From NCBI GenBank assembly GCA_017506865.1, contig JAFCMP010000257.1:744001-808000 (forward strand): 64,000 bases of DNA. The letters are read 5' to 3'. Made by a program: the position numbers and the translations under genes. Source of the stretch: Tribonema minus (taxonomy: Eukaryota > Sar > Xanthophyceae > Tribonematales > Tribonemataceae). Positions 1-64,000 of this stretch are shown one piece after another. The notes under the pieces were generated by a model that saw only the letters and a list, made by a program, of their open reading frames with translations, had not been told where the DNA came from and ran no database searches. Position 1 is the stretch's first letter, and each line of letters begins with the position of its first letter.

Positions 1-3000
1 GAGGCTGGTGGCGATGCTGGTGGCGCTGGTGCTGCCGGCGGCGTTGAGCGTTGCCAGCAGGTTTTTTAGGGGTTGAGCGCTGCTCTCGGCGTCGGCGGGT
101 TCGATGAAGACTAGGTCCGCGCGGTCGCGCTGCGCCGACAGGAATGGGCGCCCTTCGCATTCGCAGGGACAGAGTACATGTAAAATGCATAAATCAGCTG
201 CTGGTGTACATGTGCTTGAAGTATGTGTGTATGCGCAAGTGTGTGTGAAGCAACACCGTTTTTTGAATTACTCTGACTCTGGCTCTCGAGTACGTCAAGT
301 AGACGAGGTCCGCGCGGTCGCGCTGCACCGAGAGGAATGGGCGCCCTGCGCAGCGGTATGTATGTATACACAGTCGTCAGTGTATGCATATATACTTCGG
401 TAATACTTCTAGTCTACCTCACTGGTAAAACTGATACATTTCAGATGCTTTGTGAAGGATTGTACATACAGAGCGTATGAAGATATTGCATTGAACGTTT
501 GTGGGTATGTATGTATGCGGGCCGCACAGCAGCGTGCTTGCATACTGAGCTGATAAATCGCGGCGACCTTAAGACTGCGCGTATACACACTGCAGCATTG
601 GGCAGTCCTTGGAGCACTTGGCAGTACAACGCACTTGTTCATGCATTTTGACACGAGAATGGCCTGGATGCTGATGCTGCTTCCTGAAGCTGCGTTCAAT
701 TAACAGCGTTCACTGCGTAGTGGCTCCCATGTGTGACCTCCTGTTTGCGACCGACGCTTGAAGCAACGCACTGTACTGCATAATCGCGTTTCAGCATAGT
801 AGTGCGTCACGCAACACGTGGGGTACGTATCTCCCAACCCTCACCGCACCCCTCATCCACTCATGCAGCGCACCCTCACCTTTGCTCAGGAACAGCGACA
901 TCAGCGCCACGGCGACTGTATTCTGATCTCAACCCTACCGCTAGACCTCGCTAGCGGTGCTGTGATGGCACCCAACCTTAATTCCATCCCCAAACTATTC
1001 TTAGAGCGATGCCCTCACCATCTACCCACGACCCTGCTCACCTTTGGTCAGGAACAGCGACGTGAGCGCTGCCGTCATTCAATTCTGACCTCATCCTACC
1101 CCCCCAACCACCCTCAACAACAGCCAATATCCCTCGCGCTTCCCTTCCGTCAGGAACAGCAACATGAGCGCCGCCGTGAATCAATTCTGACCTTGTCCCA
1201 CCCCCCCAACCAACCCTAGAAACAACCACTACGCGGCGCCCCCCCTCACCTTCGGTCAGAAACAGCGACGTGTGCGCCGCGGTGATCTCATTCAGACCCC
1301 AACACCGCTAGACCTAAGCTGGCTTTATGCCACTCCAACCCTAGTAACATCCCGCAACTATCAGCCAATACCCAGCGGCGTCACGACTTGATTCTAACAT
1401 CATTCTACCCCCCCCCCAACCAACTCTAATAACAGCCAATACTCAGCGCGCTTACCTTCGGTCAGGAACAGCGACGTCAGCGCCGCCGTGATCACCGGCA
1501 CCGCCGCGTGCGGCTGCCCGCTGAGCACCGTCAGTATCAGCGCCGACGCGAACGGCGTGCGCGTGACGCTGACGTTGAGCGCTGCCGCGAGTCCCATGCA
1601 AACTACCGCGCGTGACGCTCCTACTGCGGCGAGCGCTGTCACCGCGGTGTGTGGCAGCAGCGCCTCGAGGGCGCGCCCCGCCGCCGCCCCCGTGAAGAAC
1701 AGGGGGAAGATGAACCTGCGGCATGGGGGGGCATGGGGGGTCAGTCAGTCAGTCAGTCAGTGTTGTTCGGTCATTTTCAATTGTTGTCAGGTCTTGACGG
1801 TGGCGCTCTATCACTCAACTGCCGCAGTTGCGGCCGTAGAGAACAGGGGGAAGATGAAGCTGCCGCACAGGGATCAGTCAGTCAGTTCAGTCAGTCAGTC
1901 AGTCGGTCAGTGTTGTTCAGTTGTATTCGGACGTTATCAGTCCTCGACAGAGATGCTCTATCACTCAACTGTCGCAGTTGCGCTTCACCATCACTGCTTA
2001 CTTTCGACCGAGGACGGGCTGACCGACGGACGGAACCCTAACTCTACCAATAACCCTCACCCTAACCCCAATCTTACCTCAACAGTGTCGCCGTTGTGAT
2101 GCGCTGATCATTACTGACTCTTGACTGACCGACGGACTGCCCGACAGACCTAACCCTTAAACCTAACCCTCTTGATGCGTACCCTGACCCTCACACCCTG
2201 AGACCCTAACCCTAAGGCTCACCCCCCCCAAGCCCTGCGTGCACGGATGTGCTGATGGCAATGAGCTTCGCGACGACGGTGGCGGATCTAACCCTAACCC
2301 TAATTCTAGTCATAACCCTAACCCTAATAAATATAATCCTAACCCTAGGACTCACCCCCCCCGCAGTCCCGCGTGCACGGAGGCACTGATGGCGATGAGC
2401 TTCGCAACGACGACGGCGGCGCACGCGCGCGCGCTGTGCCAGGGGAACGGATCCACGACCGCAGCAGCGCTCAGCAGCGGCCAGACCCCCGTGCGGGGCC
2501 ACACGTGGGGGAGGGGGAGAGGGTGCCCCCCTAGCGTGGCTATTTCGAGTTCAGACCAGAACATGGTGGGGGGGAGGAGGACGCCTAGTGTGCCGATTAC
2601 CAGGCCCCCCATGGTGGCCAGCAGGATGGGGTACTTGTGGCGGCGTTCTTCGAAGCTGCCCAGGCCTGGGGGGGGGGCGTGGGAGGTGGGGGAGGAGGAG
2701 ATGGGGAGGGGGGTAAGCTTAGTACTCAGGAGGGGCAAGGATGCTGGAATCATGGGTGAGGGGGAGGGGTAAGCACATTGTGCGGGCGGGGGGCGGGGGA
2801 GGGGGGGGGTCAGGTCATCTGCTGCGAAATGGGGTGGTGACCCGACTGCACTGTGAACTGGCAAGGCAACGGCCGACTGAATTGTGCAAGAAGGGCGCAG
2901 CAAATCATGGCATACTGCTTAGGCTATATTTCGTCCAGCAGTGTTCTCAAGAACCACCGCGGCACCTGGCGCCTTGTCAGATGGCAATAAGTGTACCCCT

Positions 3001-6000
3001 ACCCCTACCCCAAACCCGCACCCCCATGCTAGAACGCACTGTGCAATACCTACAGTTCTTGCAACAGTGAAGGCCCACCAAAGTGTGTGTCACAAGTGGA
3101 CTGTTGCCGTCACCTTGGGATTCCCAACAGGGTCAGACTTGGCATCTAGTTTCAGGCTAGTGAATCAGTTGTGCGACAGGGTCAGACTTGAATTCGGTTT
3201 GCCTGCGCTGTTCAGCGCCATACCACCACCGCATTTACTGTTTCTGTAGTCAAGGGTGTCAAAGAAAATCAGCCCTAACCCCAAAGGCTAACCCTAGCCC
3301 TAACCCTAGGGTTAGGTCAAAGGTCGCCAAGCCGGTTCACCGCGCGGCTTAGCCAGCGGTGCACCCAAGAGCTCCCGCATAATTCTTGATCTCTTTGGGT
3401 AAGTAGGATCCGGGCCTTTGACACCACCTGTGCGCAGGCCACGTCAATTGACCGAGAGCTTTAGCTGCTTTAAAAGAAGGATTCATTTACAACTGACACT
3501 CACCAAACCACTTCACAGCGCGGCCGAGCCAGCGGTGCAGCACGGCAAAAGCCAGGCCGATGGCGGCCCCAATGACGCCTAGCACTACGCCGACTAGCAC
3601 TGCACTAGCGCTGCACTTTGGCACCTCGGGGAATTGCCAGATGGCGCCGAAGGTGGCGGATTGCGCGCCGCGATAGATGGCTGGGGGGGGGCACGTAGGT
3701 GGGTGGGGTGAGAAGCAGGGGGGGCGAGGGCGGGTTGGGGGGGGGGGGTCAGAAGGGGGGGTAATGATACGCGCCAGTGTGTAGACACGAGATACTTTGA
3801 GGTAAGCAGGAAGGAGGGGGGTAGCGTTGAGTGCATTGACATGAGCAAGTGACTTGTGGGTCGACACGTTTTATCATGACATTTGGCGCTTCAGGACTGT
3901 GTCAAGTACACATTGCAAAACACAACACTTGAGAGTATGGCAGTGAAGGTGGTGAAATGCGTGCCGCAGTGACGCGGTAGATGGCTGCTGCGGTGCACGC
4001 AGCAGGGGGTGGGGTGGGGTGGGGGGGCAGCGGCGGGGGATCTTGGTGCGCATACGCGGCGATACGTGCAACCGAAGAAGAGATGTATTGGTGTGGTTAC
4101 AAGAACCTCAAGTTTAACAGAGTTCAACACGCGCCGTAACGCTCAGCGGCCATGCCTCGGCCCTAACCTATCTCTAGCAAAAGTGTCGTCAATAGGACCT
4201 AGTTGAGCTCGCAAGCACATGATGCCCTAGGAATCTGCGCCCCTGCCCTGGCCCTGACCCTAGCAAGCATATCGCCACTGGCTCCTCACGTAGGCATACG
4301 TTACGTGAGATTGAGAAGATAGTGCATGGCCAGAACCTCAACCCTAGCAAACTTGTTGACATCAGTACTGACAAAAATTGAGCAGCCCTCGCCCGAACCC
4401 TAGCAAACACGTTAACAACAGCACCTTCTCACCTAGGCATATGACGCCTGAGAAGATAGCGTGTGGCGCCACTTCAAAGTACTGGAGCCCCATGGTGTGA
4501 CAGACCTCCAGCGCAAACAGGGCCCCTGCAGATGAGGGTAACAGTTGCGGCGGTGAGCATTGCGTCACCTGTTGAAGTACATTATAACTTCAACGTGCGG
4601 CGCCACCTCAAAGTACTGGAGTCCTATGGTGTGACAGACCTCCAGCGCGAACAGGGCCCCTGCAGACGAGGGCAGCAGTTGCAACGGTGAGCACACTATG
4701 TCACCTGTTGAAGTAAGTCACTATTTCAACATTGCGATGTGGCTCCAGCGCAAACAGGGCCCCTGCAGACGAGGGCAGCAGTTGCAACAGTGAGCACTGC
4801 GTCACATGCTTCAGGTACCTGAGGGGGGGGTAGTGTCGGGGTTGAACAGCTGACCTCGCAGGAATGGATGGTTCGTCTCAGGTCTCAGCTTCTAGGAGGG
4901 TACGTCGAGGTGAGCACCAACTTAGGGTTAGGCCTAACCTAAACCTAAGCAAGCTGAGTTTCAGATTAATGTAGGGTCAGGGTTCTCATCCCTGGCAGGA
5001 AGAGCCCATCCCAACGGAGGCCTTACAAGGGCAGATACCAGGCCAGGTTCAGGCAATCCGAACCTAGCCGTGGGCTAGTAGTGGCAAAGCCCTTTTCCAC
5101 AACGAGGGGCACTGCTACGGCTAGGCTCTGCCGAACGCGGAGCTCGCAGGACTGAGGCTGTTGATGGGGCTAGGACGAACTGAGCACTGCTCACCTCTCC
5201 AGCAGCACGCCGAACGGCTGTGCACAGCACCCTCTTTTCAACACCCTCTTTTTTCCAAAACGCTGGGCAGTGCTGGGGATGCTGCTAAGCGCGCCTCTGT
5301 GCTTGTAACAAGCGTTGGGATTAGGATGGCGCACCTCTGTGTAGGATTAGGGTTGTCACTGAGGCTAGGGTTAGTTGAGCACTGCTCACCTCTCAACGGC
5401 ACGCCAAACTGCTGGACACGGCGCCCTTTGTCAGACGTGCGGCAGTGCTAGGGTCAGAGCGCTGCTGTACGCTGAGTTCACGCAATTAGGGTTGGAACTA
5501 GGGTCAGGATTAGCTGAGCGCTGTTCACCTCCCGGCGGCACGCTGAAGGTCTGGACACAGTGCCCTGTTTAGAATAAAGTTTGCACCTAGGGTTGGGGTT
5601 GCGCCTCTGTGCAGAATCAGGACTGTAACTAGGGCTAGGGTGCAAGTGAGCTGAGCGTTGCTCACCTCCCAGCGGCACCCCGAATGGCTGGACACTGCGC
5701 CCTGTTTCCACAACGCGCGACAGTACTGGGGCTGAGATTGCTGAGCGCGCCTCTGTGCAGAATAAGGCTTACAATTAGGGTTAGGGTTGTGCCTCTGTGC
5801 AGAACTGCAATCAATTGGGGTTGTAAATAGGGCTGGGGTTAGCTGAGCGTTGCTCACCTCCCAGCGGCACGCTGAAGGTCTGGACACAGCGCCCTGTACA
5901 GAACTAATTTGTACCTAGGGTTGGGGTTGCCCCCCTGTGTAGACTTAGGACTGTAAATAGGATTAGGGTTGGGGTTAGGGTGAGCTGAGCGCTGCTCACC

Positions 6001-9000
6001 TCCCAGCGGCACGCCGAAGAACGCCGCCAGCCCCGCGCTCATGCCCATGAGCGTCGCCTTGCGCACCATGCTGGGCGCCTGCGCGCGAAGCACATGGCAA
6101 GTTCAAGTTGCTGTGAGAACTTCAAGTTGTGGCACAACCGCCTCGTGTGGCGAGTTCTAAGTTGCTGCAGGAACTTCGAGCAGTAGCGCATCGTATTTCT
6201 GAAAGTGAGGCAGCTGCGGATCGTGACGGAGACGGGGCAGGCGCGCTGCAGGCCCGTGCGGACTGCGTTGCATGCCTTGGTGGGCGGCTGGGCGTGATAT
6301 CTCAAGTTGAAGTAACCATTTTGAAAAGTCACTGGAGTGCCGTACGCTACTACTGCGCATGGCGGCGCACCAACCACTGTGAACTAGCAAGGAAGCAGCG
6401 CGGTACAAGGACTACTTCCAATCTCACCAGTTAAGGGTCGTGTGATGAGCACCAGCCAATAGCCCGCGCAATCTCGGGCGCGTTGGTGTGCATACTTTAA
6501 GGTATGCTATAGGCGTTGCCGCTATGCATCAAAGCACCAAGGCCGGTTCTGACCATCGCAAGCCATGCGCGCGCAGCGCAGCACACGTACACACACGAAC
6601 ATGCAGAAGGGCCTTTGTGCACGCGCGCCGCACGCACGCACACCTGCCTGTACTGTTTCTGAGTTCGCGCTCCGTGCGCAAGAAAGCCCAGATGATTGAT
6701 GTCCAAGCTTGTAGTACGGAATCTACATGACATGAGACAATTCAAAAACGTCGCAATGACAATCACTTCTAAACGGTGCCGCCAAAAGGCATCTCCCCCC
6801 CCCACTACACCCTCGTCCATCTGTCCGCGCCCTCCAAGCTCTGCCATGTGTGCCATCACACGGCAAGGAGTACGCCATGTGGAGCGCTGCCGAGAGGCCT
6901 GAGCGTATGCTTGGCCAGTGCTACGCCTTTCAATTCTGCCTTACTTTCGAAGTGTTGAAATGCGGCCGCAATGCGGCAGCGGCGCACCAGCTGCTTAATC
7001 ACACGTACCTACATGTCAAGCGCACAGAAGCACCTCCGTGTACATACTACAACAGGAAGCCTACTTCAAGTACTGAAGTTTTCGGTGATGCACCTGCCCA
7101 GATTTTCTGGAAATGTGGCCGCACACTGCTGAGCAGAGACATCGCAGGCATGCTTGCACCCACACGTCTGTCTTCATGCCCAGAAATGCCAAGTTGCTCA
7201 CAACACTACCTTTGAAGTATTTCAACTTCTGAGTTTTTCAGTGCCGCACCTGCCCCGCATTTTCTAGAGATGTGGCCGCACACTGCTGAGCAGAGGCACA
7301 CCAGCAGTGCCTCTGGCATGTTTGCACACACGTCTGTCTTCATGCGCAGAAGTGCCATTGTGTGCTCACAACACTACGTCCGAACTACTTCAACTTCTGA
7401 ATTTTTCAGTGCCGCACCTGCCCGCATTTTCTAGAAATGTGGCCGCACACTGCTGAGCAGAGGCATACTAGAGGTGCCTCCGGGCCCAGCGACGCGCCTG
7501 CGGCGATGGAGAATAACGAACACGCCGCCATGGCCGGTGCCTGCCGCAGCGGCACGCAGCCGTGCCTGCGATGGCAATATATACAGAGAGCAACAGCGTC
7601 ATGGGAGTGGAGCGTAGGCATCTTTGGTCACTTGAAGTTTATGAAGGTCACTTGAAGTTTATGTGATGGTTGTTACTTCAAAGTATGCATCCATTCGGCG
7701 GCAAGCATGCCGCGTTGGCCGGTGCCTGCCACAGCGGTACGCGGCCGTGCCTGCAATGACGATATATGCAGAGAGCGTTGTTTTGCTGCTTTGAAAAAAG
7801 TGTTGAAGTAAGGCAGCGAGCACGCTGCCATGGCCAGTGTCTAGCGCAGCGGCACGCAGCCGTGCCTGAGGTGCGGATCAGTGCAGAGAGCAACGGCGTC
7901 ATGCGACTTTGTGAATGTTGTGCGTGACGTACGTTACATCTTTTTCCCAGTATGCTTTGAATTATTTACTTGGAATTGTATGGCTGCATGGCGCCTGGCG
8001 CACTGGCAGTAATCCTGACCGTTACCCTATTTCTAACGCTAAATCTAACCCTAACCTGACCCTTGCCCTAAACCTAGGAGCGGGGCGCCATGCAACCAGA
8101 GGTCGTGCGCCTTACATTTTAAAACTGTGTGTAACTTCAACATCTTACGGTCTGAGTAGCCATGACGCTGAACTGTGCAGTTTGAGGGTTCAGAATACTA
8201 GCGCGCAGGTGATGTACCCGAAGCCTGGGGCGTGTGCTTCAACTTCACCTGCCTCCTGGGGTTTCCACGATAAAGCTCTGACAGTATTCCGCAAGTGCGT
8301 GCATGCCCACCCACATCTGGATCGTGTACTTTATATTAAAAAAAAACAGGGCGCGAAAAAGCCCAGATGATGGTCTAACTTGATGCTGCTGTACGGAATC
8401 TGCATGTCGTGTGACTTCTGAAAGTGTCTCAACGACAACCACTCAAACGCCGCCGCCGCCAAATGGCATCTCGTGTACTTCAACGGGCCCCACAGCGGCT
8501 CACACAGCCACCTTAACCCTAGCCCTAAGACTGCGTCAGGACCACGGCCAAAGCGCGTTATTGAAGCGTGTTATGGGACACAGAGCTGGATCAACAGTGT
8601 GCCGAGAGTGTGTGCACGTATACTGAAGCACGTGCACCTACTCCATGCGAGGCTGCTGAGGCAGCCACCTCCAACTTGCACAACTTCAACTTCAGCAGCT
8701 TCAACTGATCATACCAACGGATGTGTTGTGTTTCAGCTGCTGCTGCTGCTCCTCGCTCAGGGGAAGTTTGTTCATTGTGCGTATGCCATGTACGGTATAC
8801 ATGTATATACTTCTGAAACGCAAAGAAGCTTTCGTGTTCAAGGGGCATGGGACATCTTTTTTTTTTCTTCTTACTTCGACTCTCAGTTGCAGGGCTCTGA
8901 CCTAGGTGCGGCTCCTCACCTGTGAACGCATTCCACGACGTTGGGAAGGTCGCCTGCAGCACGCAACAATGAACCGAAAGAGCGCACGCATTGCATCGTT

Positions 9001-11097: not shown

Positions 11098-14000
11098 CCC
11101 GCCCCCGCCCCCGCCGCCGCCGCCGCCGCCGGCAGCGCGCCAGCCCTGCAGCAGCAGCGCCTTGGCGGTCGTTTCGCGCCGCTCGTGCGCGGAGGATGGC
11201 GATGGGAGGCGCTTCGGCGCGCCGCCGCTGCCGCCGCCGCCACTGGCAGCAGCGCTCAGTTGCTCGAGTTCGCTTGAAGTTGCTGCGGCGGCGGCGGCGC
11301 TGAGCGCTGCCGTGATGGCGGCGCCGACGTCGCCGGAGTTGAGGCTGTGCGGGCGCTGCGTCAGGCTGCTGGGCATGGTGCGGTGGCCCAGGGACGTCGA
11401 GGGGCGCCGCGGGGGGGGTGGGGTAATCGCCATTTCATTCTGGGAGTGTGAAGGGGAGGGGGAGGCGGGAGGGGGGTGCCGTGAGCTATATGGAATTGGT
11501 CCGAGGTACAATGATGCATGTGATGGTGAACGCCGTCACGGGTGCTGTCAGAGGGGAGGGCGCTTCGTTCTGAGTGGTGAGGGGGAACCGGAGAGTGAGT
11601 GGCAGGCCTCAACGTGATGATTGCATCACGACACACACTATGTTGACCGGGTTCCGTCAGGGCTAAGATTAAATGAGTCCTGCCGCAGTTTGTGGATCAC
11701 TCATCCTCAAGGTGCTAGACAGCAAGAACCTTCAAACCGTGTGCACTCACGTCTAGGTCCGGATCTGTGGCCTGATCCGTATCCGGCGAGTGACCCCGGT
11801 CTGGTCGCTCGGGCCGTTCTGGCGACGACCAGCGGCGTCCGCGCGATGGAGAACGTTCCATGGTCACCAGAGCGCGTTCTCCGGAGGTAGAGCCGCGCGG
11901 CGATATTCGCCCCGCAATGTTGAGCCTGCGAGAGCGGGTGGGGGGGGGCGGGCAGGCCGTGAGTTGAAGTTGCAAGAGCGCAAGGGGGATGTGGTCATGT
12001 GCCAGTGCGGCGGTGCCCAGGTTCCCAAAGAACGCTTGCATGCGGCACAACGATGCTGAGCACTGCAACAAGGACAAAGTGCTCACGCGCCAAGCCCCAA
12101 CTCCCAACTCCAACCCCTAGATGAGGCATTGCTCAAGCCTGACCCTTGATGAGACACCGTCCCGCCGCACCTGGTCTACGAGTCCCCAGAGAGGGCCAGC
12201 ATGCGATCCGATGTTGCAGTGAGGATGGATGCTTGTACGCTTAGCCCTAACCCTAACCCTACCCCTAGCCCTATTTCTACCCCCCAATGCGGCTAGCCCT
12301 AACCCTGACCCTAACCCTACCCCTAGCCCTACCCTAGCACCGCTCCGCCTCACCTAGTACCCAGATCCCCGAAGAACGCCAGTATGCGGTGCGGCGATGA
12401 CGATGCGGAGCGCTGCGACGACGAAGAGTGCTTGCGCCCCGCGGCCGCGCCGCGCTGCGAGTGCGTCAGCGGCGCGCACTGCTGCTGCCCCGCCGCATCC
12501 GCCAACGCCAACGCGTCGTTGCCCGCCGCCGCCGCCTCCGCCGCCGCCGCCCCGGAGGCATCGGCGGCGGCCTGCCGGCTCAGGGTCTCTTGAGACCCGC
12601 GCTTCGCGCCCAGGCGCAAGGGGGGGGCATCGGGGGACTCGGCGTTGATGGACGTGCGCGGCGTTGTCAGGCGCCGGGCTGAGCACTGTTGCTGCTGCTC
12701 TGAGCACTGCTGCTCGCCCTTGACCTCCAGGCGCGCCACCGCCTTGGCGACGGCGCCGCCTGCGCCGCCGCCGCCGCCGCCGCTGCTGCTGCTGCTGCGC
12801 GGCGACGCTGCTGCCGCCGCCGCCGCCGCCGCCGGAGAGGCGGCTGCAGTAGCAGCAGCTGTGAGCTGTGCTGGTGCGGCGGCAGCAGCGGCGGCGGTGG
12901 GTGGAGATGCTGCCGCACGCGCGGAAGCTGCAGGCAGAGCGGTAGGAACCGCTGCCACTGATGGAGCTACGGCTGCCTTCGCCGTTGAACCTGCCGCCGC
13001 AGCTTGCGCTGCCGCTTTCGATGCTGGCGCTGCCGCGTGCGCTGCCACCGCCACCGCTGCCGCTGCCGCAGCTACACTAGTTGCAGTCGCTCCACCCGCA
13101 TCAGCAGCCGCGACTTGCGCTGCCGCTGCAGGTGATGGCGCGGTGCTTTTCGCTACCGCTGCTGCTTGCGCCGCCGCCGCCGGCGAGCTCGGTGCCGCCG
13201 GCGCCGCCACTGCTGCTGCTGACGGAGCAGATTTCCCTGCTGCATTCAGCGCCCCCGCTGCTGACACCGCAGTCCTCTCACACGCGGCTCCCGGTGCAGT
13301 CGCTACCGCCGCCGCTGTTGCCTTTGCAGCACCTGCAGCAGTTGCCGCAACAGGCGTCACCACAGGCCTGGCAGCACCAGTGGCGGCCGCCTCCGCCCTT
13401 ACCCCCGGTGCACTGGCACCAGCCGCGGGCAACTTGCCGGCCCCAAAGACAGCCGCCGCAGCGGGCGCTGCTGCTGCTGCCGGCACCCTCGCCGCCGCTG
13501 CCGCCGCCGCCGCCGCCACAGACAGCGACCCTGCGGCGTCAGCTGCGTCCGCCGCTACCCTGACCTGCTTCACCGGACTGAGCGCTGCTGCCACGGGCCT
13601 CAGCACCATGCCGCCGTAGGCCATTTTCTGAGCGCTGCTGCTGCTGCTGCCGGGGTGGGTCGCGGCGCAGGGGGACGCGTGGGGGGACGCGTAGGGGGAC
13701 GCGTAGGGGGGCGGGGTAGGTATGCTGATGTCGTCGTCGCCGTCGGATGCGGACTCGTACTCGGCGACGGACTCTGCGTCGCTGGCGTTGTCCTCCAGTA
13801 GGCGCTGCGCGGTGCGGTGGCTCCCGTCGCTCGCGGGGCGCGCCGCGCTGCAGCGTGCGGGAGTGTCAAGCGTTAGTGTCAGGCCTAACACTGTACTAGC
13901 AAGTCACTGTAGGATGGCTGCGATTTCAGGTTGAGGGTGAGCAGGACTGGCAGCTAGGGCTTTGCCAGTGGTTCAGATACCCCATTTGACAGTGAAATTT

Positions 14001-15598: not shown

Positions 15599-18500
15599 AC
15601 TCGGCGGCGTGCGCCTCCGCGGCGACGTTGGACGCGCTGGCGAGGGTCTTGCGGCGCAGGGAGAGGCGCGAGGGGCATGTGGATGGGGCCTGCGGCGCTG
15701 CTGCCGCGGAAGCGTCTGCGGCGGGAAGAGCGCGGAGCGTTGTGCACGTGCTTAGGGTTAGGATTAGGGTTTGGGGTAGGGTCAGGCAGAGCAAAGGGTG
15801 AGGCGCGCAGCGAGGATGATGGGTGTTGGGTAAGGTTGCTGAAGTTGAGGCGTGTGCTGAGCGCTGCGCACGTTGCGGCGGTCACGGCTCTCGTCACCTT
15901 TGGGATCATCGCGTTCCAAGGATAGCCTCAGCGTATTGAGAAGACCAAGTGAGCTGGCCAAACCTAACTCTCATCCTAACATCAAATCTAACCCCAACCT
16001 CAACCCCATTGCTCACCCTAATCCTTGCCCTAACCCTTCAAGTCAGGTGATGCCTATGCGCAGCTAGTCAGCCCTAGGCGTTCAAGGCAGCACTCGTACA
16101 AGGACAGAAGCATCCCACAGCCGGTACTCAGCACTCTTCCTCAATAGTCGCGGCACGGCCGATGCTGAACTGACCTGCAATCGAGCAGTTGATGGCGAGA
16201 CGCGGGACCGACGGCGCCACCGCCTCCAGCGCAGCAGCCGCCGCCGCAGCGTCTGCGGCCAGCCTGTTGCTGCCGCCGCGGCTGCCGCCGCCGCCGCCGC
16301 CGCCAAAGGCTGCTGCGGCAGCCGCTGCCGCCGCGCCCAGGCTGCCGCCGCCTCTGCTCGCCTTCATCGCGGCGGCAGCAGCGGTAGCAAAGCCGCCGCT
16401 GCCCTTGCCGGCCTCTGCGACGATGGTTACGTTGCCGCTGCCGCTGCCTCTGCCGCTCTTGCCCGCTGCCGCGGCGGCGCCCACGCTGCCACCGCCGCCC
16501 CTGCCGCCGATCGCCGCCGCGGCTGCCGCCACTACGCTCAGGTCCCCGGACACGAGCATCGGCGACGACGCCGGCGACAGCAGCGCCGGCGGCGCCACCG
16601 CCGCCGCCTGCGCTGCCGCCGCCGCCGCCGCCGCCCCCCCCGTCACAGCGCCCAGCGTCCCGAGCACCGCGTCCGTGGAGCGCGAACGCTGGCGCTGGTG
16701 GCGGCGCAGCGGCGGCGGCGGCGACACGCTGCGCGCTCCCGCTGCCGCAGCAGCGGCGGCGGCGGAGGCGGCAGCGCTGCGCGGGGCGGGCGCCGAGCCG
16801 GCGCGGCCGCGGGCGGCGGCGGCGGCGGCGGCGGCAGAGGCGGCGGCGGTGGCGTCGGGGCTAGGGTTAGGGCTAGTCTCGCTGCGCACGCAGAAGACGC
16901 CGTAGCGGAGCAGGCCCTCCGGCAGGCCGCTGAGGGAGATCTCGTGCATCTCGGTGCGGCCGGCGTCGTCGGGGACCCAGACCTGGGGGGGCAGGAGGGC
17001 AGGTAGGTATGTAGCGGTGGGGGTAGGGGGGTGAGAGGTTGGGGTAAGGCGGTCTGGAGGAGATGTCACATGTCGTGAGAGCGGCTCTGTGCGAGTCAGA
17101 CCTGGGGGGCAGGGGGCAGGTAGGTATGTAGCGGTGGGGGCAGGGGGGCGGGAGGTGGGGGTTAGGTGTACGATCCGGGGGGATCATGAGGTGAAGGCTC
17201 TGTGCAAGCCGGCTCATTGGGGGGGCTGCACGTGACAAGCAGGGGCATGTATATGTATGGGCAGGGGTATGCATGTATCATATATGGATGGATGGGGGTG
17301 CTACGGCTAGCAACAGAGTCAGGAGTGAACTGAGGCCGAGAGCCAGTCATGCGCAGGCAGTAGGAAAAGTGATCAAATTCAAGCTTGCCAGCTTGACTCT
17401 AACTGGGCCAGCTTCACCCAGTGATTTCCAAAGTGCAACAGTCTCGCTGTAGTCTCTTTCCTAAGGGGCGAGCTGTCACCCTCAAACTGCGAGTAAATAC
17501 TACCATCAGTAAAGAGCAGACGTGCACATGCAGCAGACCTGCACATCTGGCAGTACAGCCCCAGCGCACCTGCACCGTCCGAGGCCCCTGCGTCTTGGAA
17601 GGCGACTCCACGGCAGCGACGCGCTGCAGCCCCACGCTGTCCTCCATTGAGCTGCGCCGCCGCCGCGGCGTGCCCCCCGCCGCCGCCGCCGCCGCCGCCG
17701 CTGCCGCTGCCACCATCGCCACCACCGCAGTGTCGCTGTCACGCATGGCCAACTGCTCGTCACCACCGGCAGCAGCGGCGGCAGCAGAAGCGGCGCTGGC
17801 GGCGGCGGCGGCGGCGGCGGGAGAGTGCAGCGAGACTTGCGCTGAGGACAGTGAGCCGTCGTCTGTGGCACTGGAGGCGTCCCTGTCGTGGCCGGCGGCA
17901 GCGGCGGCGGCGGTGGCGGCGGCGGCGGCGGCGGCGCCGTCGGTGTGCGCCAGTATGGCGGCCTGTCAATGCAGCAGCAAGACAGAAGTAGGGTTTGTGA
18001 GTGATTTTGCACTTGAAGTTGGTGCGGACGTAGACAAGTTGAATTTCAGCCATTGGTTGGTGTGCGTGCACTGCTGTTGGTATTGATGTCATTGAATGCG
18101 ATCATGGCATCGACACCGGCAGCGGCAGCTGCGGCGGCTGCGGTGGCTTTCACAGTAGCAGCAAGTACTTGTATAGACGCACTTGAACTTGGTGAGGATG
18201 CTGATTACTTGAACTTTAGCCTGTGGTTGGTGTGCGTGCACTGCTGCCGGTGACGGCGGCGTTGAATGCGGCCATGACATGGCCACCGGCGGTGGCGGCA
18301 GTGGCGGCTGCGGCGGCTGTCACAGTAGCAGCGAGTACTTGTGTACATGAACATGCTTGCATATTTCGCTGCCCCTGAGCGCTTGAAGCACTTGATGAGC
18401 CCGCCAAGCCACTTGCCTACAATACCTCGTTGCCCCTGAGCGACGCGAAGTGCTCCGTAAATGCGTCGAGCCACTCCTGCTTGACGCGTGCAGTGTGTGT

Positions 18501-29906: not shown

Positions 29907-39748
<9,842 letters not shown>

Positions 39749-39873
39749 TCGCCGACGTGCTTATTCGAAGCTGGGGGCGGAAGGGGGAGGGGGTGGGGGG
39801 GGGTCAGTCTCACTACGAATGAGGGGGGGAGGGGAGTATGTGCCGTCACAACAAGCACAACTGATTTATGTGC

Positions 39874-43900: not shown

Positions 43901-44545
43901 TCAACTGGTGCAACGTACGCCTACTACCACTGCCACCTCCCCCCCATCGGCGCCTTCCCTGCAAGGTCGTGTGCCAGCGCCGCTACCTTTTTACACCCGG
44001 CGGCCCTAACCCTTGCCCTAATCCTGGCCCTAGTCGCACCTCCGCCGCACCCACCTGCAGGCACGTAGACGCCACATACGCCTACTACCACTATCACCTC
44101 CCCCCCAACAGCGCCGTCCCCTACATGGCATGGCTACTCCTTTTCCTAGCGTTGACTGCGACTTGAACCCTCACTTGAAACTAGTACCCTAATCCTAGCC
44201 TACCCCGCTTCCGCCCACTTCGACTGCAGGCACGTCGACACCACATACGCCTACTACCACTACCACCTCCCCCCCAACGGCGCCTTCCCCTACACAGTGG
44301 CGTGCCTCCGCGGCCGCCTCTCCGACACCTCCTTCACCAACGGCTCTCCCAACCTCCTCCAGAGCCTCCCTGCGTGCACGCCTCAGGCGCAGCAGTACAA
44401 CTACACGGGCGTCGCGGCCATGTTTGCCGCGGCGGATCCCGCAGGCGCCGACTCCACTGACACCGGCGGCGCCGCCGCTGCTGTCCCCTCTGTGCTTGCT
44501 GTTGTGTGCGGCGCGGTGTTTGCGGCAATGGCAGCTGCCTTTTGA
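40945..44545 (+). CDS. secreted YHYH-domain protein (apparent frameshift in exon 2)
   Basis: Exons 40945-41083, 41724-41997, 42816-42985 and 44230-44545 have matching GT/AG borders. Exon 1 starts with a signal peptide (MKPVALALMATQAVRG core). The family motif appears as GDYHYHSEP in exon 3 and as AYYHYHLPPNG in exon 4. MVVPLTPTIASKP in exon 2 and GIMADGVPIFGSLGDGG in exon 3 are also typical of YHYH proteins. The tail ends in a hydrophobic Ala/Val stretch after a small-residue region, as in GPI-anchored or membrane-tethered proteins. In exon 2 the 5' part (GCPGYDWTSETTP) and the 3' part (from about 41785) lie in different frames: one base is missing, or two are extra, near 41775-41790. This is either an assembly error or a true break. 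The molecular function of YHYH proteins is unknown. Confidence 0.72.
42010..42245 (+). repeat. copies of the YHYH exon 2 donor end
   Basis: GCGGATAAGCAGGA...GAGAGCCACAC...GTGAGC recurs with borders at 42115 and 42242 against the true 41997. Spacings are 118 and 127 bp. Confidence 0.88.
43896..44145 (+). repeat. ~167-bp tandem copies of the YHYH exon 4 acceptor end
   Basis: Acceptors at 43896 and 44061 precede copies of the codons for TYAYYHYHLPPNGAFPY; the true acceptor is 44230. Spacings are 165 and 169 bp. The second copy retains YYHYHLPPN. Confidence 0.9.
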
Positions 44546-45662: not shown

Positions 45663-45947
45663 AGGTATATATCAGCAACGCTGCCGTTATGATGCGCACG
45701 TGCTGTCGCACACACAGCGTCAACCGCAACTTCAACTGTGTCAGCAGACTTGAAGATCGGCTACACACCAAGTACACGAGGCGGCAAAATCAGCAGCGAC
45801 GTGTCCACCATGGTCTCGTGCGGGCCGCGCTTTTTCGGCTCGAAAGCTCCACACTAAGTACAACCTTATTTGCGAGGAAGGACTTGAAGTTGCTACCCTC
45901 CAGACTGCAACCTCAACTGTGACCTAGGACTTAAAAGCGCTGCGCTA

Positions 45948-46165
45948 GATGTCCGCGCACAGGTACGAGGCGACGATCAGCGACACCGCCATGGCCTCCC
46001 TCAGGTCGCGCTCTCGGCTCGAAAGCTCCGCACTGCAACCTAAACTGCGACCCAGGACTTGAAGTTGATACTTGAAGTTGCTATGCGCTAGATGTCCGCG
46101 CACAGGTGCGAGGCGACGATCCGCGACACGTCCGCCACGTCCTCCCTCAGGTCGCGCTTTCAGCT
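45948..46165 (-). repeat. copies of the methyltransferase terminal exon end, including its stop codon
   Basis: The sequence encoding DVSLIVASYQCADI and the TAG recurs twice in the 3' flank, at about 45948-46016 and 46090-46160, with spacing of about 140 and 115 bp. These copies lie outside any intron of the gene as modelled. Confidence 0.88.
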
Positions 46166-46223
46166 CGAAAGCTCCCGCACTGCAACCTCAAGTGTGAATC
46201 AGGACTTGAAGTCGCTACATGCG

Positions 46224-49151
46224 CTAGATGTCCGCGCATTGGTATGAGGCGACGATCAGCGACACGTCCGCCATGGCCTCCCGTAGATCGCGCTCCGGCG
46301 CGCCCGCCGCCACCGCCGGCAGCCCGTACGCAGGTATGCCCAGATCCTCCGCCGCCGCCAGCAGCTCTGCGCAGCGCGCCGCCCACGCGTCGCGCCGCGC
46401 CGCCGCCGCCACTGCCGGCCCCACCGACTGCGCGAATGCCTCCGTGAGTCCTCCTGACGCTTGCGCAGCGTTGCCTGTGGCATCTGCTGTCACCGCCGCC
46501 GCCGCCGCTGCTGCTGCGGAGAGTGGTGGCGGTGCCAGAGTGGCGCCGCTCGCGCCGGCGGCAGCAGCGGCGGCGGGGCTGCTGCCGTCCGCCGCCGCGC
46601 CCGCCGCCTGACCGTCTGCCGCCGCTGCTGCCGCCGCCGCCGCCACTGCTGCCGCCGCCGGCCGCCTTGCGTGCACAACCCACATGGGGCGTGCGTTGGC
46701 AGCGCTCAGCTCCGTGCTGCAGACGTCCGCGAAGCCCGCGGCGCGCGCGAGCGCCTGCACGAGCTCCACGCGCTGAGCGCTGGTGCGTCGCGCCCAGCCG
46801 CGCGTGGCCTTCACCTCGAAGCAGTTGCGCGTGAAGGAGACGGCAAGCGCGCCGCCGGGCGCGAGGACGCGGCGCGCCTCCGCGAGCACCGCCTCCGGCT
46901 GCGTGAGGTACTGGGTGTTGAAGTTGAAGTTGAGGGCAAAGGGGGGGTGGGGGTGGGGGGTGAGGCGGAGCGCGGCAATGTGGGTAGAGCAAGCGGCCCT
47001 CGGCGAGCACTGCCTCCGGCTGCGTGAGGTACTGGGTGTTGAAGTTGAAGTGCAATGGGGGGGGGAGGGGGGTCAGGCGGCGCGCGGCGAGAGCAGAAGG
47101 GCCTCGGCGAGCACTGCCTCCGGCTGCGTGAGGTACTTGTGTTGTAGTTGAAGTGCAATGGGGGGAGGGGACGAGGCAGCGCGGCAAATTGTGCAGGAGG
47201 GGCATCGCGTGCCGCTCACATCTTCGAGAGGTACTGCATGTTGAAGTACAAGTAGAAGTGAAAAGGGGGGGGGGGGTGGAGGCAGCCGCGCGTGGCGTTG
47301 TGTGCGCAGCAGAAGGGCCAGCACCGCATGCCGTGCGTCTGCGTTCGCGTACAGCGGCTAAGTCGAAGTTGAAGCAGCACAAGAGGGCAGGTAACGCTGC
47401 GCCGCGCTCACAAACGTCTGCATACGCGTACAGCGGCTGAGTTGAGATTGAGGCAGCACGAGAGGGCATGTCTGCTGCTGCTGCTGCTGCATGCTGCGCC
47501 GTGCTCACGAGGTGGCCGTGATGTGCTGCAACGGGCTTCAGCTAAGGACTGCCGCTGGGTAGCGCCGCTCTGGCTCCCGAGCACCGATCAGCACCATTTT
47601 ATAGAAGTTTGTATGCTGGTGCAGCGATTGCGTTTGCCTTCAGCACTCTCTACCGTGAATGAAGGTGACTGCTCTGAATTCCAGGCACGAGCCACACCAT
47701 ACATGTGAATAGCTCCATGAGCGACAACACCTTTCCGCAAGCAAGCTTGGCGCTCACGTCAGCGCCGCAGTTCTGGACATTGGTGAAATCATGCGCTCTG
47801 AAAAGTGGCATAACGCGCCCAGACTGCAATACTGCAAGTCCAGGATGATACAGCAAACCAGTAGGGTGACAGGGCGCACGCACTCCTGCCGTCTCTGCTT
47901 TTGCTCCGTAGAAACTAGATTGGGCCAAAAAGGTTTGTAGTTCTGTCGGAGACAAACTTCAAAATCGGCAGCGCTCAATCCTATTGGAATATGGGCTTGT
48001 TCTGTGTCTCGCCTATAGTTCTATGGTTCGTGCCTGTTCGCAGGGACAGGTACAGCGGTTACGTAACCGCCACCGACAAAGCTTGTTTTGTTGGTAAATG
48101 CACACTGGTGGTCTCGGGCAGCACGGACATCTTGGCTTTATGCTCCTGCTGCTGTCATGTCATCTGAAGACGAGTACTTTCTCAAGAAGTACGAAGTTCC
48201 TCCTGAGGAGGACCGCTCGAAGATAACTTCAACATTCCATCACCTGAATGCCGCAGCACATGAGCACCGCATCGAACTTCCCATCCGGCAGCGGCAGCCG
48301 CGGTTCCAAGTTCAAGTCCTGAACAAAGTAGGCGTCGAGCAGGGGGTTGCAGCGCAGCTCCCTGACGTTCATCCCCTGGCCCTCCACATGCGACAGCGAG
48401 AGCTCTCGCGGCAAGTGACTGACCCTGAAATGAGCACGGCGGAAGGTGCAGAGGGGACACTTACTCCAGTGGAAAATGAGGCCATTCTTCTGTTGGAAGC
48501 TCAGTGGCGTGCGCAGTCTCATGACGGGTCACAGCGCCGAGGTTCCGGATTTGCAACGCCAATGTCTTTCATGACTTCTTTGTGCTTTCACGTGCAACAT
48601 GGGAGTGGTTTTTTGTCTCCCGGATTAGGTGTGGAGTTCGCTTTGCCAGCCAGGTTGCTGTGCCGCGGTGCTCGCTTTGCCGATTTCCCATCTATAGTCG
48701 AAAGAGGCCTACATCGAAGGTCATGAAGTTCACGAATAAAATCAGGCAGGCCAAGCGGACATCAGAGCCTAAAGCGTTGTCGACACACTCTCCGCAACCA
48801 GTACCTCTGCCGATCATCAAAAGCTGTGCCCAAGTTGCTACAGAAATTACGCGAGGTAGCCAGCATGCATCCGTGGACCTGCATATGCCAGATGCACTTG
48901 AAGACAGCAATCATCACACAGGCAACAAGGTCTTTGAGCACTGCACCGAAGGAGCGCAATCTTTCAGCCAAGCACAGGACTAGCATTGCTCGCGCTCTCA
49001 CCAGCTAGAGCATAGATCCAGAACAGCGCCGCCCTGGGGGATCATTCTGAAGTACAGCTCCTGCAGCTGCGCCAGGCAGTCGTGATCCGCATGATACACC
49101 AGCCTGGTATTCCTGTAGAACAGGCAGTCCGGGCTCTCGTCCGCTCTCCGC
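46224..49151 (-). CDS. SAM-dependent methyltransferase (class I, 5' end unresolved)
   Basis: Three exons resolved: 49151-49002, 48424-48244, 46910-46224, phases 2 then 0, 339 codons including the stop. In order: FYRNTRLVYHADHDCLAQL, then GGAVLDLCSSWVSHLP (SAM-binding motif I region), GQGMNVRELRCNPLLDAYFV with QDLN, FDAVLMCCGIQYLTQPEAVL (motif II/III) and LAPGGALAVSFTRNCFEVKA. This matches a Methyltransf_11-like family found in algae, plants and bacteria; the substrate is not evident. A poly-Ala insert of about 70 residues follows the methyltransferase core. Exon 1 must end in phase 2. A candidate ends at 49478 before GTATGTAG, inside a perfect hairpin, but its frame is not convincing. Copies of the third exon's 5' edge (47.0-47.25 kb) and of its 3' end including the stop (45.95-46.16 kb) flank it. 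Confidence 0.78.
47020..47250 (-). repeat. copies of the methyltransferase exon 3 acceptor end
   Basis: CAGTACCTCACGCAGCCGGA and following codons (YLTQPEAVLAE) recur with borders near 47033 and 47138. A more decayed copy lies near 47230. The true acceptor is 46910. TTCAACTTCAACACCCAG-like pyrimidine tracts are copied with them. Confidence 0.88.
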
Positions 49152-53620: not shown

Positions 53621-53677
<57 letters not shown>

Positions 53678-57017: not shown

Positions 57018-57093
57018 TTCAGATGACGTCAACCCAAAAACCAGAATTCTTTTGATTCAGATGACGTCAACCCAAAAACCAGAATTCTTTTGA
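57018..57093. repeat. 38-bp tandem duplication containing TGACGTCA
   Basis: Two consecutive identical 38-bp units (57018-57055 and 57056-57093), each with the palindrome TGACGTCA and an EcoRI-type GAATTC. Confidence 0.9.
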
Positions 57094-60019: not shown

Positions 60020-60094
60020 ATGAAGGGTACCTCGAGAGTTCATTCTGACTTGAAGTTCAAGTCTTCTTCAACTTTCGCCAGATGTTGACAATCC

Positions 60095-63000
60095 ATGCGG
60101 TGGAGCGGCACGAGGCTGTACATGGGCTTTGGCCTCTTGTCGGCGCTCGGGTTATGCGAGCTGCGACATGATCCTGATGCAGTGCTGTTGCACTTTGAGA
60201 ATGAGGTGAGTTGAAACAAACTTGCATCAGAAGCATGTGAGCACGCCTATATATGCCTGTCAAAGCGCAGTATGCTCATCGTGTGTTCGATCGCCGTGCA
60301 TCACTTGCTGCAAACGACGGCAAGGTGGCAGTGCGCATGCGCATCGAGAAGCGGAAGACAAGGAAGTGTGTTGGGGGATGCTCTGAAAGGGACATGCACA
60401 CAGGCTGTCGAAACAGCAGCCTCCCAACCAACAACCTGCATTATTTCATTTGACAAAATTTGAGACCATGTGCACTGCCAGGTGCCTGGGCAGACTTCTG
60501 TCAAAATCATCCAGAGCCTTCAAAGATAAAACCAACAGCAAGCAGGCACCAAGTGTGGTGCGAGAAAAATGCTTGGCTGATCGACTGACTTCCATGACGT
60601 TCCGTCAATTGCTGCAGTCTCAGGACCCTCTGATAGTTAGTTGGATCAACATGGAAGGGAACGTTGCCCTGCTGCCGCAGACATTAGACCCCATTGCAGC
60701 ACAGGGCGATCGAGCAGACATCGCCACTTTCAAGTGAGCACCTACACTGACTCTTCTGTGACATGCTGACACTAGTAAATTTGTTGTGTCCGTTGTTTGC
60801 AAACAGGTTTTAAAAGACCTGATAACCCCATGTCCCGCCTCTGCCCTAATGACTTGTCTATACTACTATGTAGCACTTCAATTTTCTCAAAGCACAGCCT
60901 CAGTTCCGCCTCTGCAAATGAAGATGCAGAAGGCGCCAATAGCCGTGCGCTTTCATTGGACTGACATTGCAGAGCCTGGCACTTGCGCGAGTGGCAAAGC
61001 CATTGTGCATCTTGATGTTGGATGATCAATGCTCTTGTACGAGCAGATGCGGTGCAGACTTTGAAGCATACATTGTGTATGCTGTAGAAAAATGACATGA
61101 ATTACGGGTTGGCACTTGCGCGAGTGGCAAAGCCACTGTGCATCTTGACGCTGAATGATCGAACGCTGCTGCACGAGCAGATGTGGTGCAGACCAATTTG
61201 ATTCATACATTATGTATGCTAGAAATATGACATGAATTGCGGGTTGCATTCATGTGCTCTCCTGCAGGGGTCACTCATTTGTGGCGCACAAAGCGCACGT
61301 CGCCATGACACGCGACAAAATAGAAGCGGGCCATTCTGCGGACGCCATTACATTCTCTGCATCAGAGTGGGGGGGCACAGTGACCGTCACCAGCAACGAG
61401 GTAAATTGGGCATCGAACTGAGATGTAGCTCAACAAGTCCGCGCCAGCAACTGTCCTCGTTGCTGAGATTTGGTCAGCTGAGATTTGGTCAGAGGCAGAA
61501 ATTTCTGGCAAGCTGCAGCAAGCACAGCATACATGGTTCATCCTGGCAATGCACATCATATTGTTGTTCATTAATAACGTTTGCACTTTGAGGGAGCATA
61601 CCATCATACTATCCTGTTCATGCCCTCACCAGTCCCATATTGCAGTGCTGCTGCGCCATTGCCGGCGCATCGCTGCCCCTGCACGCTTAAGGTGCAGGGT
61701 TGCTGTGGTGCGGTTTTAGACACATTCAGTGGAACATGTGCCACGCATGCATGTCTGTGTGGGCATGATACATGGTACACCTGTAAGGGCTGGACTGCTC
61801 ATGCGCGTGCGCAGCTATCATATCTTAGGTTTTCCTCGATGGGGCAATGATGAACAGACGCTACCGTATACTTCGAAGTACTATAGTTTCAGCGCTGAGT
61901 CACCAAAACGCTTTGGCATTGCTTGGTCTGTACCATGACCTCATATCCAAGCACATTGCAGCACATTGGCGTGCCAAAAGTTTACAACTGGGATAAATAT
62001 TTTTTTGAGGTCATCATCTACAAGTATGTGTTCATTGCTCACTGACAACCCACAATGCAGGCGTATGCTGGGACAGTAACACTCAACCCCAAACAATATG
62101 CGTCGCTTTTGGGGGCGGGTTTAACGCAGGGGTGTATGATCTAAGCTGAATTGGCAACAAACCTACTCAACTCAAATCACCAGGGTAAAGTCCTGATGCG
62201 TGAACCAATGTGGACAACAGACTCTCAGATGGTCGCGACAGATGGCCATGCCAGATGTCACACTAAGCCGAGGATCGTGAGTGCATGCGAGCCAATGACG
62301 GATGCTCTGCATCTTTGGTCTTGTGTGATGCTTCAGGATGGCAGCCTCAGGTTGCATGAGACGAACAGCTACATTCGCCTTAGAAAGCAGATGACGGAAG
62401 CCGCCACACAGTGCAGACAGGAGAAGGGCAGGGATGACCCAGCAATCCTGGACAAGCACATGCTGAAGTGTGTGACTGACATCATGGCTGCGCATGTCGC
62501 ATCACTGGTGAGAGCCATTGCAACAAGTGGGTGCTGCTTGTGAGCTGGCGCATGTAAAAGAGCACATTGACGTGTTTGCACCCATCGCACACCACTTTAA
62601 GGAAATTGACACGATGCCTTGTCGAATGCGCATGCACAGTAGATTGATCCGAGCCGCCACTGTTGAGCTCCTCTGTCGCTGCACTGCAGTCCATGTGCAT
62701 AACGAATTGCTGGCAGCACTTAACGGGGGCGGCGGTGTACCTGACACATTAAAAACCTCAAGGTGTGTCAAGAAAGGCAGACTTGGCGAGGCATCTACAG
62801 TTGCTGACTTTAAATCTATGCATGGAAACCTGCAACTTGAAGGGGCACCCTTAGTGCTCCATTTTGCCATGCATGAAGCACTCAGGTTGAATGTACAGCT
62901 CGCAGCCAAAGTTATGAAGCCAGCAATGGAGTGGAAAGCTTGCGCTAGTGATCGCCTTCACATTTGAGCATCAGCTTGCACCTGTGTGCTAATCGCATGT

Positions 63001-63281
63001 GCGTGCTGGCAAGTGCCCCCATCACCAACGCGTGCAGCATCACCTGCACGCTTGCTGCATGTGCTGCATCGTCTGCAGTGCCGCTGGTTCAGCACACACT
63101 CCTGCCGCGTGTTCGACTCAATGCTCTTGATGTGCGTTGCTACTGTCAGGATCGCGAGCTCTCGCGGCAGCGCAGGGCACTGGACCATGTGTCGGACCGC
63201 ATGACCAGCTATGCCTGTAGCGACCAGGTCAAAGACACCACCGATCCACCACTGAGCGTGGAGGAATGGGAGGGCAGAGAG
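60095..63281 (+). CDS. multi-exon gene of unknown function, probably continuing past the right edge
   Basis: I do not recognise the product. Phase-compatible exons: 60095-60205 (ATG, MRWSGTRLYMGFGLLSALG, signal-like), 60417-60733, 61268-61400 and 62184-62507, then an open stretch to about 62960, and 63150-63281. Residue blocks include FRQLLQSQDPLIVSWINMEG, HKAHVAMTRDKIEAGHSADA, LRLHETNSYIRLRKQMTEAA, FAPIAHHFKEIDTMP and RRALDHVSDRMTSY. At 62508 a GTGAGA donor coincides with a frame change; a very short intron (37 or 55 bp) or a frameshift must be assumed. An extra possible exon at 62059 reads AYAGTVTLNPKQYASLL. GC content and codon use are lower than in genes to the left. Alternatives are a mobile-element ORF or a decayed gene. 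Splices were inferred only from phase and consensus. Confidence 0.42.
60980..61250. repeat. ~130-bp tandem duplication in the unknown gene
   Basis: GGCACTTGCGCGAGTGGCAA begins both units; each also carries ACGAGCAGATG and GACATGAATT near its end. The units differ at scattered positions. They lie in the intron before the exon at 61268. Confidence 0.8.
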
Positions 63282-63369
63282 GTATGTAGGTACCGTGCTT
63301 TCTGGGAAGCAGGTGCCACACATGAGCTGCACGGCCGGATAATATAATGCCTGTGCAAACATTAGCATG

Positions 63370-63855
63370 GTCAATACCGACCCGCCGCTGAGCGTGGAGG
63401 AATGGGATAGTCGAGAGAGGTAGGTACCATGCTTTTAAGCAGCATGTGTCATGTATAAGCTGCATGGCTGGCTAACAATGCCTTGTGCAAACATTAGCAT
63501 GGTCAATACCGACTCGCCGCTGAGCGTGGAGAGGGGTGGGCGGGCAGAGAGGTAGGTAGGTACCATGCTTTTGAGAAGCACGTGCCACATACAAGCTGCA
63601 TGGCTGGCTATTTGAATGCCTGTGTAAACCTAAGCATGGACACGCGTGGCCTGTTGCTGAGCGCTGACGACCGGGAGGGCAGAGCAGTGGTAGGTACCAA
63701 GCTTTTGAGAGTGGGAGAGCAGAGAGGTATGTACCATGCTTTTGTGAAGCAGGTATCACATGTGCGCTGCATGGCTGGCTATGCCTGCAGGTGCAAACCT
63801 TAGCATGGGCACCAGCGGCCTGTTGCCGGGCGCTGAGGAGCGAGAGGCCAGGAAT
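63370..63855 (+). repeat. copies of the last visible exon end of the unknown gene
   Basis: Four degenerate copies of the end encoding TDPPLSVEEWEGRE plus the GTA(T/G)GTAG donor follow the border at 63281, each after AGCATGGTCAATACCGAC or a variant. Spacing is roughly 130-150 bp. Confidence 0.8.
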
Positions 63856-64000
63856 ATAGGCATCATATATTTGAAATTTACTTAAAATGGGAAGACGTAT
63901 TCTTTTCAACAAGCAGTTGAGTGCTCACGCACCGCGTGCGGTTGCTTGCATCGTGCATGCTGTGGCTTGAACATTTGTACACAGCTGCTGATGCACTCAC

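Follow-up and report, generated by a model that had tools for sequence, protein, structure and literature searches.

Within a 64,000-nucleotide stretch of the genome of Tribonema minus (GenBank assembly GCA_017506865.1, contig JAFCMP010000257.1, positions 744,001 to 808,000; hereafter the window), introns of the CLC, RhoGEF, CNNM, YHYH and methyltransferase genes carry degenerate, direct copies of the edges of the exons they adjoin, in many cases as tandem arrays. This exon-edge copy pattern is real and was confirmed beyond the window. It is very probably the product of recurrent local tandem duplication across splice junctions, the copies being tolerated in introns, which they lengthen, and decaying there as fossils.

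Self-BLAST of the window yielded 86 repeat pairs, 84 of which lie within 4 kb and are all direct, the two distant pairs being inverted. Probes of 75 bp were applied to 54 predicted junctions (27 acceptors, 27 donors; one of them, the MT1 "acceptor", is actually internal to the first exon; a few further borders are off by some bases), a score of at least 40 being counted as a copy. Copies on the intron side were obtained for 26 junctions, i.e., upstream of 12 acceptors and downstream of 14 donors, and on the far side of the exon for none of the 54 (top score 36), which bears out the original prediction of acceptor-end copies upstream and donor-end copies downstream. No copy was present at the other 28 junctions, and no inverted copy was observed in 108 trials with these probes. 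A search with longer probes (no overlap of probe and target; exon part limited to 100 bp; one place counted twice) detected 71 copies at 27 of 53 window junctions; copies numbered 1–7 per junction.

Genome-wide searches covered 158 Mb in 554 contigs, with the window residing on contig C257. Loci were taken from matches to the Pfam families CLC, kinase and ABC and to the CNNM protein (66 of 68 usable), and 60 exon loci were left after removal of window loci and of overlapping or allelic duplicates. At these exons, the 5' end was copied upstream in 11 cases and downstream in none, and the 3' end downstream in 12 cases and upstream in none; this one-sidedness (23 intron-side versus 0 far-side) extends the pattern, always on the intron side of the exon, to other loci. 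Mid-exon probes had no copy upstream and a single one downstream, and inverted copies were absent from all 60 exons. At 58 other loci, 126 direct and 13 inverted pairs were recorded, all of the latter being palindromes lying on themselves. The share of exons with a copy was 3/7 for CLC, 8/18 for ABC, 5/7 for CNNM and 2/28 for kinases, many kinase matches representing complete domains in a single open frame. Over all sets, the longer probes recovered 110 copies, located at the 27 window junctions, at 6 of 10 junctions of the CNNM paralogue on contig C3 and at 12 of 56 Pfam-locus junctions.

Insertion of introner-like or other transposable elements beside exons has nothing in its favour beyond the repetition itself and is hardly conceivable: a whole-genome search with three array segments (very common words skipped) returned only the own locus or, for two of them, the RhoGEF paralogue on contig C533, each array copies its own exon, and near pairs are never inverted. 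The direct orientation and proximity of the copies and the confinement of the tested segments support local tandem duplication of junctions as originally proposed. An assembly artefact would be of equally negligible probability. Tandem arrays are indeed hard to assemble; however, most copies differ by 5–30 % and also in length, the one-sidedness follows gene structure, and two haplotype-like contigs have one array in common. Another array differs between these contigs by about one unit. The unit present in one of them (L069 versus L070) derives from an old repeat (82 % identity) and thus indicates gain or loss of a unit rather than birth of an array. Contigs C90 and C179 carry three kinase matches in collinear order over ~445–479 kb, with a length difference of 34 kb, and two compared stretches are ~91–96 % identical; these contigs probably represent two haplotypes left in the assembly. 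Kinase matches of identical score and frame length on C144, C223 and C278 are perhaps recent segmental copies.

Three proteins bear on how the copies are treated by splicing. The spliced methyltransferase query (324 residues) has a full-length match of 100 % identity to the annotated T. minus protein P0122, which is longer by one residue at the first splice point and by 22 at the start. The transcript-derived protein P0002 matches the CNNM gene with 91 % of the query covered at 100 % identity after rounding; mapped to the window, exon 1 is 97 % identical and exon 3 differs in one residue. In P0002 (CNNM exons 1–5), P0122 and P0003 (C3 CNNM), exons are joined and the intervening copies skipped.

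The arrays and the exons concerned are listed below, with the supporting analyses in parentheses (TRF, Tandem Repeats Finder).

1456–1715, minus strand: CLC exon, acceptor end copied upstream and donor end downstream (Pfam Voltage_CLC, junction probes)
1029–1493, minus strand: donor-end array of CLC exon 1456–1715, TRF period 102 (TRF, cluster test, copy search)
1690–1982, minus strand: acceptor-end copy of CLC exon 1456–1715 (junction probes, cluster test, copy search)
4460–4818, minus strand: acceptor-end array of CLC exon 4433–4525 (cluster test, copy search)
5165–6019, minus strand: donor-end array of the CLC exon ending at 6000 (cluster test, copy search)
18422–18791, minus strand: donor-end array of RhoGEF exon 18723–18929 (junction probes, cluster test, copy search)
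19672–19911, minus strand: donor-end copies of RhoGEF exon 19860–20018 (junction probes, cluster test, copy search)
19949–20751, minus strand: acceptor-end array of RhoGEF exon 19860–20018, TRF period 111, seven copies (TRF, cluster test, copy search)
21083–21422, minus strand: acceptor-end array of RhoGEF exon 21014–21130 (cluster test, copy search)
22624–23105, minus strand: acceptor-end array of RhoGEF exon 22581–22676, TRF period 119 (TRF, cluster test, copy search)
24168–24790, minus strand: donor-end array of RhoGEF exon 24714–24878, TRF period 177, four copies (TRF, cluster test, copy search)
31196–31341, plus strand: CNNM exon (borders from P0002)
31280–31650, plus strand: donor-end array of CNNM exon 31196–31341, 3.3 units of 113 bp (TRF, self-BLAST, copy search)
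32577–32729, plus strand: CNNM exon (borders from P0002)
32680–34093, plus strand: donor-end array of CNNM exon 32577–32729, six copies with 48–51 bp of exon each, not in P0002 (protein mapping, cluster test, copy search)
34387–35158, plus strand: acceptor-end array of CNNM exon 35079–35381, four copies with AG intact in all, not in P0002 (protein mapping, cluster test, copy search)
36608–37333, plus strand: donor-end array of CNNM exon 36512–36684 (cluster test, copy search)
41934–42259, plus strand: donor-end array of YHYH exon 41840–41997 (TRF, junction probes, cluster test, copy search)
43910–44314, plus strand: acceptor-end array of YHYH exon 44230–44545 (cluster test, copy search)
46863–47297, minus strand: acceptor-end array of the last methyltransferase exon, the exon being confirmed by P0122 (TRF, junction probes, protein mapping, cluster test, copy search)
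45805–46302, minus strand: tandem copy across the methyltransferase stop codon, no splice junction (protein mapping, cluster test)
63240–63851, plus strand: donor-end array of predicted exon 63150–63281 of an unknown gene, TRF period 136 (TRF, cluster test, copy search)

The pattern thus holds for the five genes named in the original prediction; for the sixth, the unknown gene, the array is present, its exon 63150–63281 being predicted and devoid of homology support. Six tandem clusters lie off any placed exon (108–352, 7061–7483, 7517–7906, 18009–18345, 47336–47471 and 60977–61246), some of which may mark unrecognised exon borders.

The clearer arrays have TRF periods of 84–177, and copy spacings in the longer-probe search have a median of 144 (interquartile range 117–178), in agreement with the predicted periods of ~85–200 bp, often constant within an array; examples of near-constant periods are copied junctions at 177, 354 and 532 bp or at 111, 221 and 331 bp. 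The exon part of the copies has a median of 48.5 bp and exceeds 80 bp in 6 of 110 (with the 100-bp probe limit). The junction is crossed by 97 of the 110 copies, so that the claim of copies "always" including the splice site was too strong. Likewise, the notion that the nearest copies are usually the most similar receives little backing: by score, the nearest copy ranks first in 18 of 30 multi-copy arrays, and no clear dependence of identity on distance is apparent (Spearman −0.12, p 0.22, 110 copies). No copy reaching 90 % of an exon was found with probes of at most 100 bp, a result informative for exons of up to ~110 bp. Arrays are not whole multiples of a unit. Within arrays, copies tend to share their starting base in the exon (48–51 bp of exon in six CNNM4 copies, 48 bp in four copies at the last C3 acceptor), suggesting a single founding duplication and later expansion of the array.

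Repeats favour coding borders over other places. When probes were placed at the junction, 48 % of donors and 44 % of acceptors had a copy deeper in the intron, compared with 52 and 44 % at 25 bp and 8 and 12 % at 75 bp inside the exon, 30 and 33 % at 25 bp into the intron, and 4–26 % at 400–600 bp into the intron; random non-exon points had a copy in 11–12 % of cases on one side and in 17.5 % on either. Coding borders are crossed by 26 of the 32 repeat clusters of the window (25 splice junctions, one stop codon; one low-complexity pair omitted from the count), as opposed to a mean of 5.8 (sd 2.1, maximum 13) in 1000 permutations, in a test that included exons 39352–39628 and 63150–63281, both predictions without homology support. 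Within gene spans (the five window genes plus C3 CNNM), 25 of 29 clusters cross a border versus 8.65 after shuffling: CLC 4/6, RhoGEF 7/7, CNNM 8/8, YHYH 2/2, methyltransferase 1/2 and C3 CNNM 3/4, of which YHYH (P 0.06), C3 CNNM (P 0.10) and methyltransferase (P 0.51) are not significant alone.

How this preference arose is the point at which a rival account carries most weight. Tandem duplication might be indiscriminate, with junction-crossing events kept longer owing to their anchorage in a conserved exon, or with most events dating back to introns still too short for a whole unit, and this is assigned a sizeable probability, somewhat short of even. Pooled over the window, C3 and the Pfam loci and assuming a 120-bp target per known junction, the cluster density at known junctions exceeds that elsewhere 11.6-fold at any identity (37 versus 48 clusters), 10.1-fold at ≥85 % identity (16 versus 24) and 4.6-fold at ≥90 % identity (4 versus 13, p 0.018). 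Clusters away from known junctions are thus common (48 of 85), some of them beside exons with unplaced borders, and the junction excess falls with youth, so that part of it may stem from persistence rather than origin. The youngest donor-end array (31280–31650), with units of 97 % identity, makes up 309 bp of the 401-bp CNNM2 intron, which would measure ~144 bp with the array collapsed, consistent with once-short introns. Against indiscriminate duplication, the detection advantage of junction pairs amounted to only 1.1–1.2-fold in a simulation without large deletions, young arrays still have some junction excess (4 of 17 clusters), and at least 3 of the 13 non-junction clusters of ≥90 % identity lie at ends of exons with unplaced borders or in the same array. 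Moreover, stop-codon borders are rarely copied: a copy crosses the stop in one of five terminal exons (methyltransferase; two of the five are predictions) and in none of the 18 single-frame kinases whose stop could be measured, versus 45 copied junctions among 119 splice junctions. This tentatively suggests a preference for splice junctions over ordinary coding ends, although the kinases could form a class of their own. What is left of the junction excess might reflect a genuine bias of origin or be a relic of shorter ancestral introns. Active focusing of duplication on splice junctions, e.g., through transcription-associated polymerase pausing or RNA-DNA hybrids at splice sites, is a tentative and rather doubtful proposition; if true, splicing itself would drive intron growth in this lineage.

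Sequence divergence supports the view of the copies as neutral fossils of a constrained exon. In 32 arrays, the divergence between copy and exon is 0.084 for codon positions 1 and 2, 0.206 for position 3 and 0.160 for the intron part, i.e., at ratios to positions 1 and 2 of 2.47 [2.07–2.97] and 1.91 [1.61–2.27], respectively, close to the 1:2:2 expected for a free copy of a constrained exon. Together with their skipping in the proteins examined, this agrees with the ageing fossils originally envisaged. Copies under selection as spare splice sites, decoys or enhancers are very improbable. Of the 66 copies that extend ≥8 bp to either side of the junction, 58 retain the GT or AG of the exon, which might speak for such a function, yet this fraction (0.88) approximates the 0.84 (0.916 squared) expected from a constrained parent and a free copy and thus gives no sign of copies being kept or purged as splice sites; conservation of neighbouring exon pairs is 0.77–0.89 and that of pairs further into the intron 0.43–0.70. 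Selected function is further disfavoured by exon parts behaving neutrally, by arrays that differ between paralogues and by proteins that skip the copies.

The contribution to intron sequence is substantial in the genes analysed. In six genes, hulls of border-crossing arrays occupy 35 % of the intron sequence (10,501 of 29,876 bases), and one or more copies occur in 20 of 25 introns, which upholds exon-edge duplication as a route of intron growth, its standing as a "major" route being demonstrated for few genes. Intron length and copy number are positively correlated (Spearman 0.63, p 0.0008, 25 introns), a relationship that is partly circular since longer introns give more room. The three CNNM genes (window, C3 and C44) share introns at or near P0003 positions 140, 190 and 291, and the copies in each resemble the exon of their own gene, indicating that they arose after the genes parted. 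The intron at position 190 measures 2349 bp with ten copies in the window and 558 bp with one copy in C3; its C44 counterpart has one donor copy. The RhoGEF paralogue on C533 possesses all six introns, with GT-AG borders except for the last acceptor, which is unplaceable; it has 6 copies (0/0/1/2/3/0 per intron) versus 24 in the window (0/2/7/2/8/5), at intron lengths of 350/870/1459/727/660/867 bp versus 518/369/2037/1450/995/930 bp. The comparison is mixed: among the four introns for which the window gene has the higher copy number, its intron is the longer one in three cases (by only 63 bp in one of them) and the shorter one in the fourth. At the GEF3 donor (exon 24714–24878), C533 has one copy and the window four, at similar spacing (184 versus 177 bp); the GEF7 donor has three copies in both paralogues, and the seven-copy GEF6 acceptor array has no counterpart at the C533 junction.

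Other intron positions differ among the CNNM genes (~69/70 and 348 in the window only, 309 in C3 only, 321 in C44 only, 260 in C3 and C44), implying that introns were also gained or lost. Such differences would suit intron birth by tandem genomic duplication, which is nevertheless very improbable as the source of the arrays: its predicted signature (intron start resembling the downstream exon start, intron end resembling the upstream exon end) was present in none of 25 introns (scores 6–17, threshold 40), bearing in mind that old births would be blurred.

Several observations weigh against recurrent junction duplication. In the longer-probe search, 26 of 53 window junctions and 44 of 56 Pfam-locus junctions were free of copies. 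Intron length in the RhoGEF paralogues tracks copy number only partly: one intron is longer in the gene that has fewer copies, and another is longer in the window gene despite equal copy number. Skipping of copies is known from three proteins only, and few genes have protein-confirmed borders. Among these proteins, P0002 could be an odd isoform, as it leaves the CNNM gene after residue 353, within exon 5. Its divergent tail (residues 353–431) may reflect an odd isoform, a paralogue or a mis-assembly; residues 353–399 resemble window positions 39833–39973 at 47 %.

Under local tandem duplication of junctions, units of ~85–180 bp would start mostly 15–80 bp inside the exon and end in the adjoining intron, the duplicating step presumably being replication slippage or short-homology repair, and the array would subsequently gain and lose units. 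Since only one of the two splice sites of the exon is copied, the spliceosome would still join the original borders, and the copy would end up inside the intron. Exon definition is established knowledge, and through it a copy with a single splice site would constitute no exon and be tolerated. Ectocarpus genes are said to carry mammal-like exonic enhancers (PMC12477816). Duplications that fall within an exon or take in a whole one would alter the protein and be eliminated, and those across one border would be nearly free; being nearly neutral, they would lengthen the intron and decay as fossils.

Gene models in the window rest on several sources. Pfam support exists for CLC (Voltage_CLC on joined exons), RhoGEF, YHYH and Methyltransf_11; PH and cytochrome b561 matches fall slightly under the cut-offs. 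An ab initio gene finder, its codon table partly trained on antisense frames, called 297 exons (65 under a stricter penalty); its raw exon set was rejected as overcalled, some fossil copies having been taken as exons, and exons with a high score, Pfam support or protein support were kept. Between 10300 and 18300, low-complexity Ala- and Ser-rich open frames with a sub-threshold PDZ match are possibly the tail of the RhoGEF gene. Telomere-like interstitial CCCTAA/TTAGGG runs occur at 12245–12336, 19452–19474, 22083–22119 and 36731–36784, alongside many short tracts in both orientations.

Long introns are usually attributed to transposons or left unexplained; exon-edge duplication represents a distinct route with a readable and dateable record and may underlie long introns in this algal group. 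Each fossil copy identifies its parent exon, the free copy and the constrained exon together forming a natural clock. The arrays also provide a means of testing how the splicing machinery passes over numerous intact decoy sites and, as happened here, can lead gene finders to call half exons as real.

Among the papers listed in literature searches, mostly without subscription papers and without the T. minus genome paper, none gave an account of tandem exon-border copies building introns. The closest known concept is tandem genomic duplication, the different signature of which was absent from the 25 introns tested; a potato case of intron gain by this process has reportedly been described (PMC4974935). 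In this process, duplication of an exon piece containing AGGT gives rise to a new intron (PMC3443670). Both phenomena involve short, local, direct duplication inside genes that changes intron content; tandem genomic duplication, however, creates new introns, whereas the Tribonema arrays copy existing junctions and enlarge old introns. Intragenic duplication, said to involve duplicated exonic segments that stay genic, likewise shapes gene structure, the Tribonema copies by contrast being part-exon and spliced out. Intronic minisatellites (variable number tandem repeats) are head-to-tail arrays of fairly constant period, and the Tribonema arrays resemble them in head-to-tail units of roughly constant, TRF-detectable period; the Tribonema unit, however, straddles an exon border, and arrays occur at borders more often than under random placement. 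Tandem exon duplication copies a whole exon with both splice sites, while Tribonema mid-exon copies were found at only 1 of 60 loci. Direct repeats near splice sites measure 4–30 bp and lie near both borders of an intron (PMC11782384); both kinds of repeat occur at intron borders, the Tribonema units being multi-copy with exon parts of ~50 bp. Introner elements are reported to contribute largely to intron sequence (PMC9860276), as the Tribonema arrays do in the genes analysed; introners are dispersed, whereas the Tribonema units tested are private to their exon.

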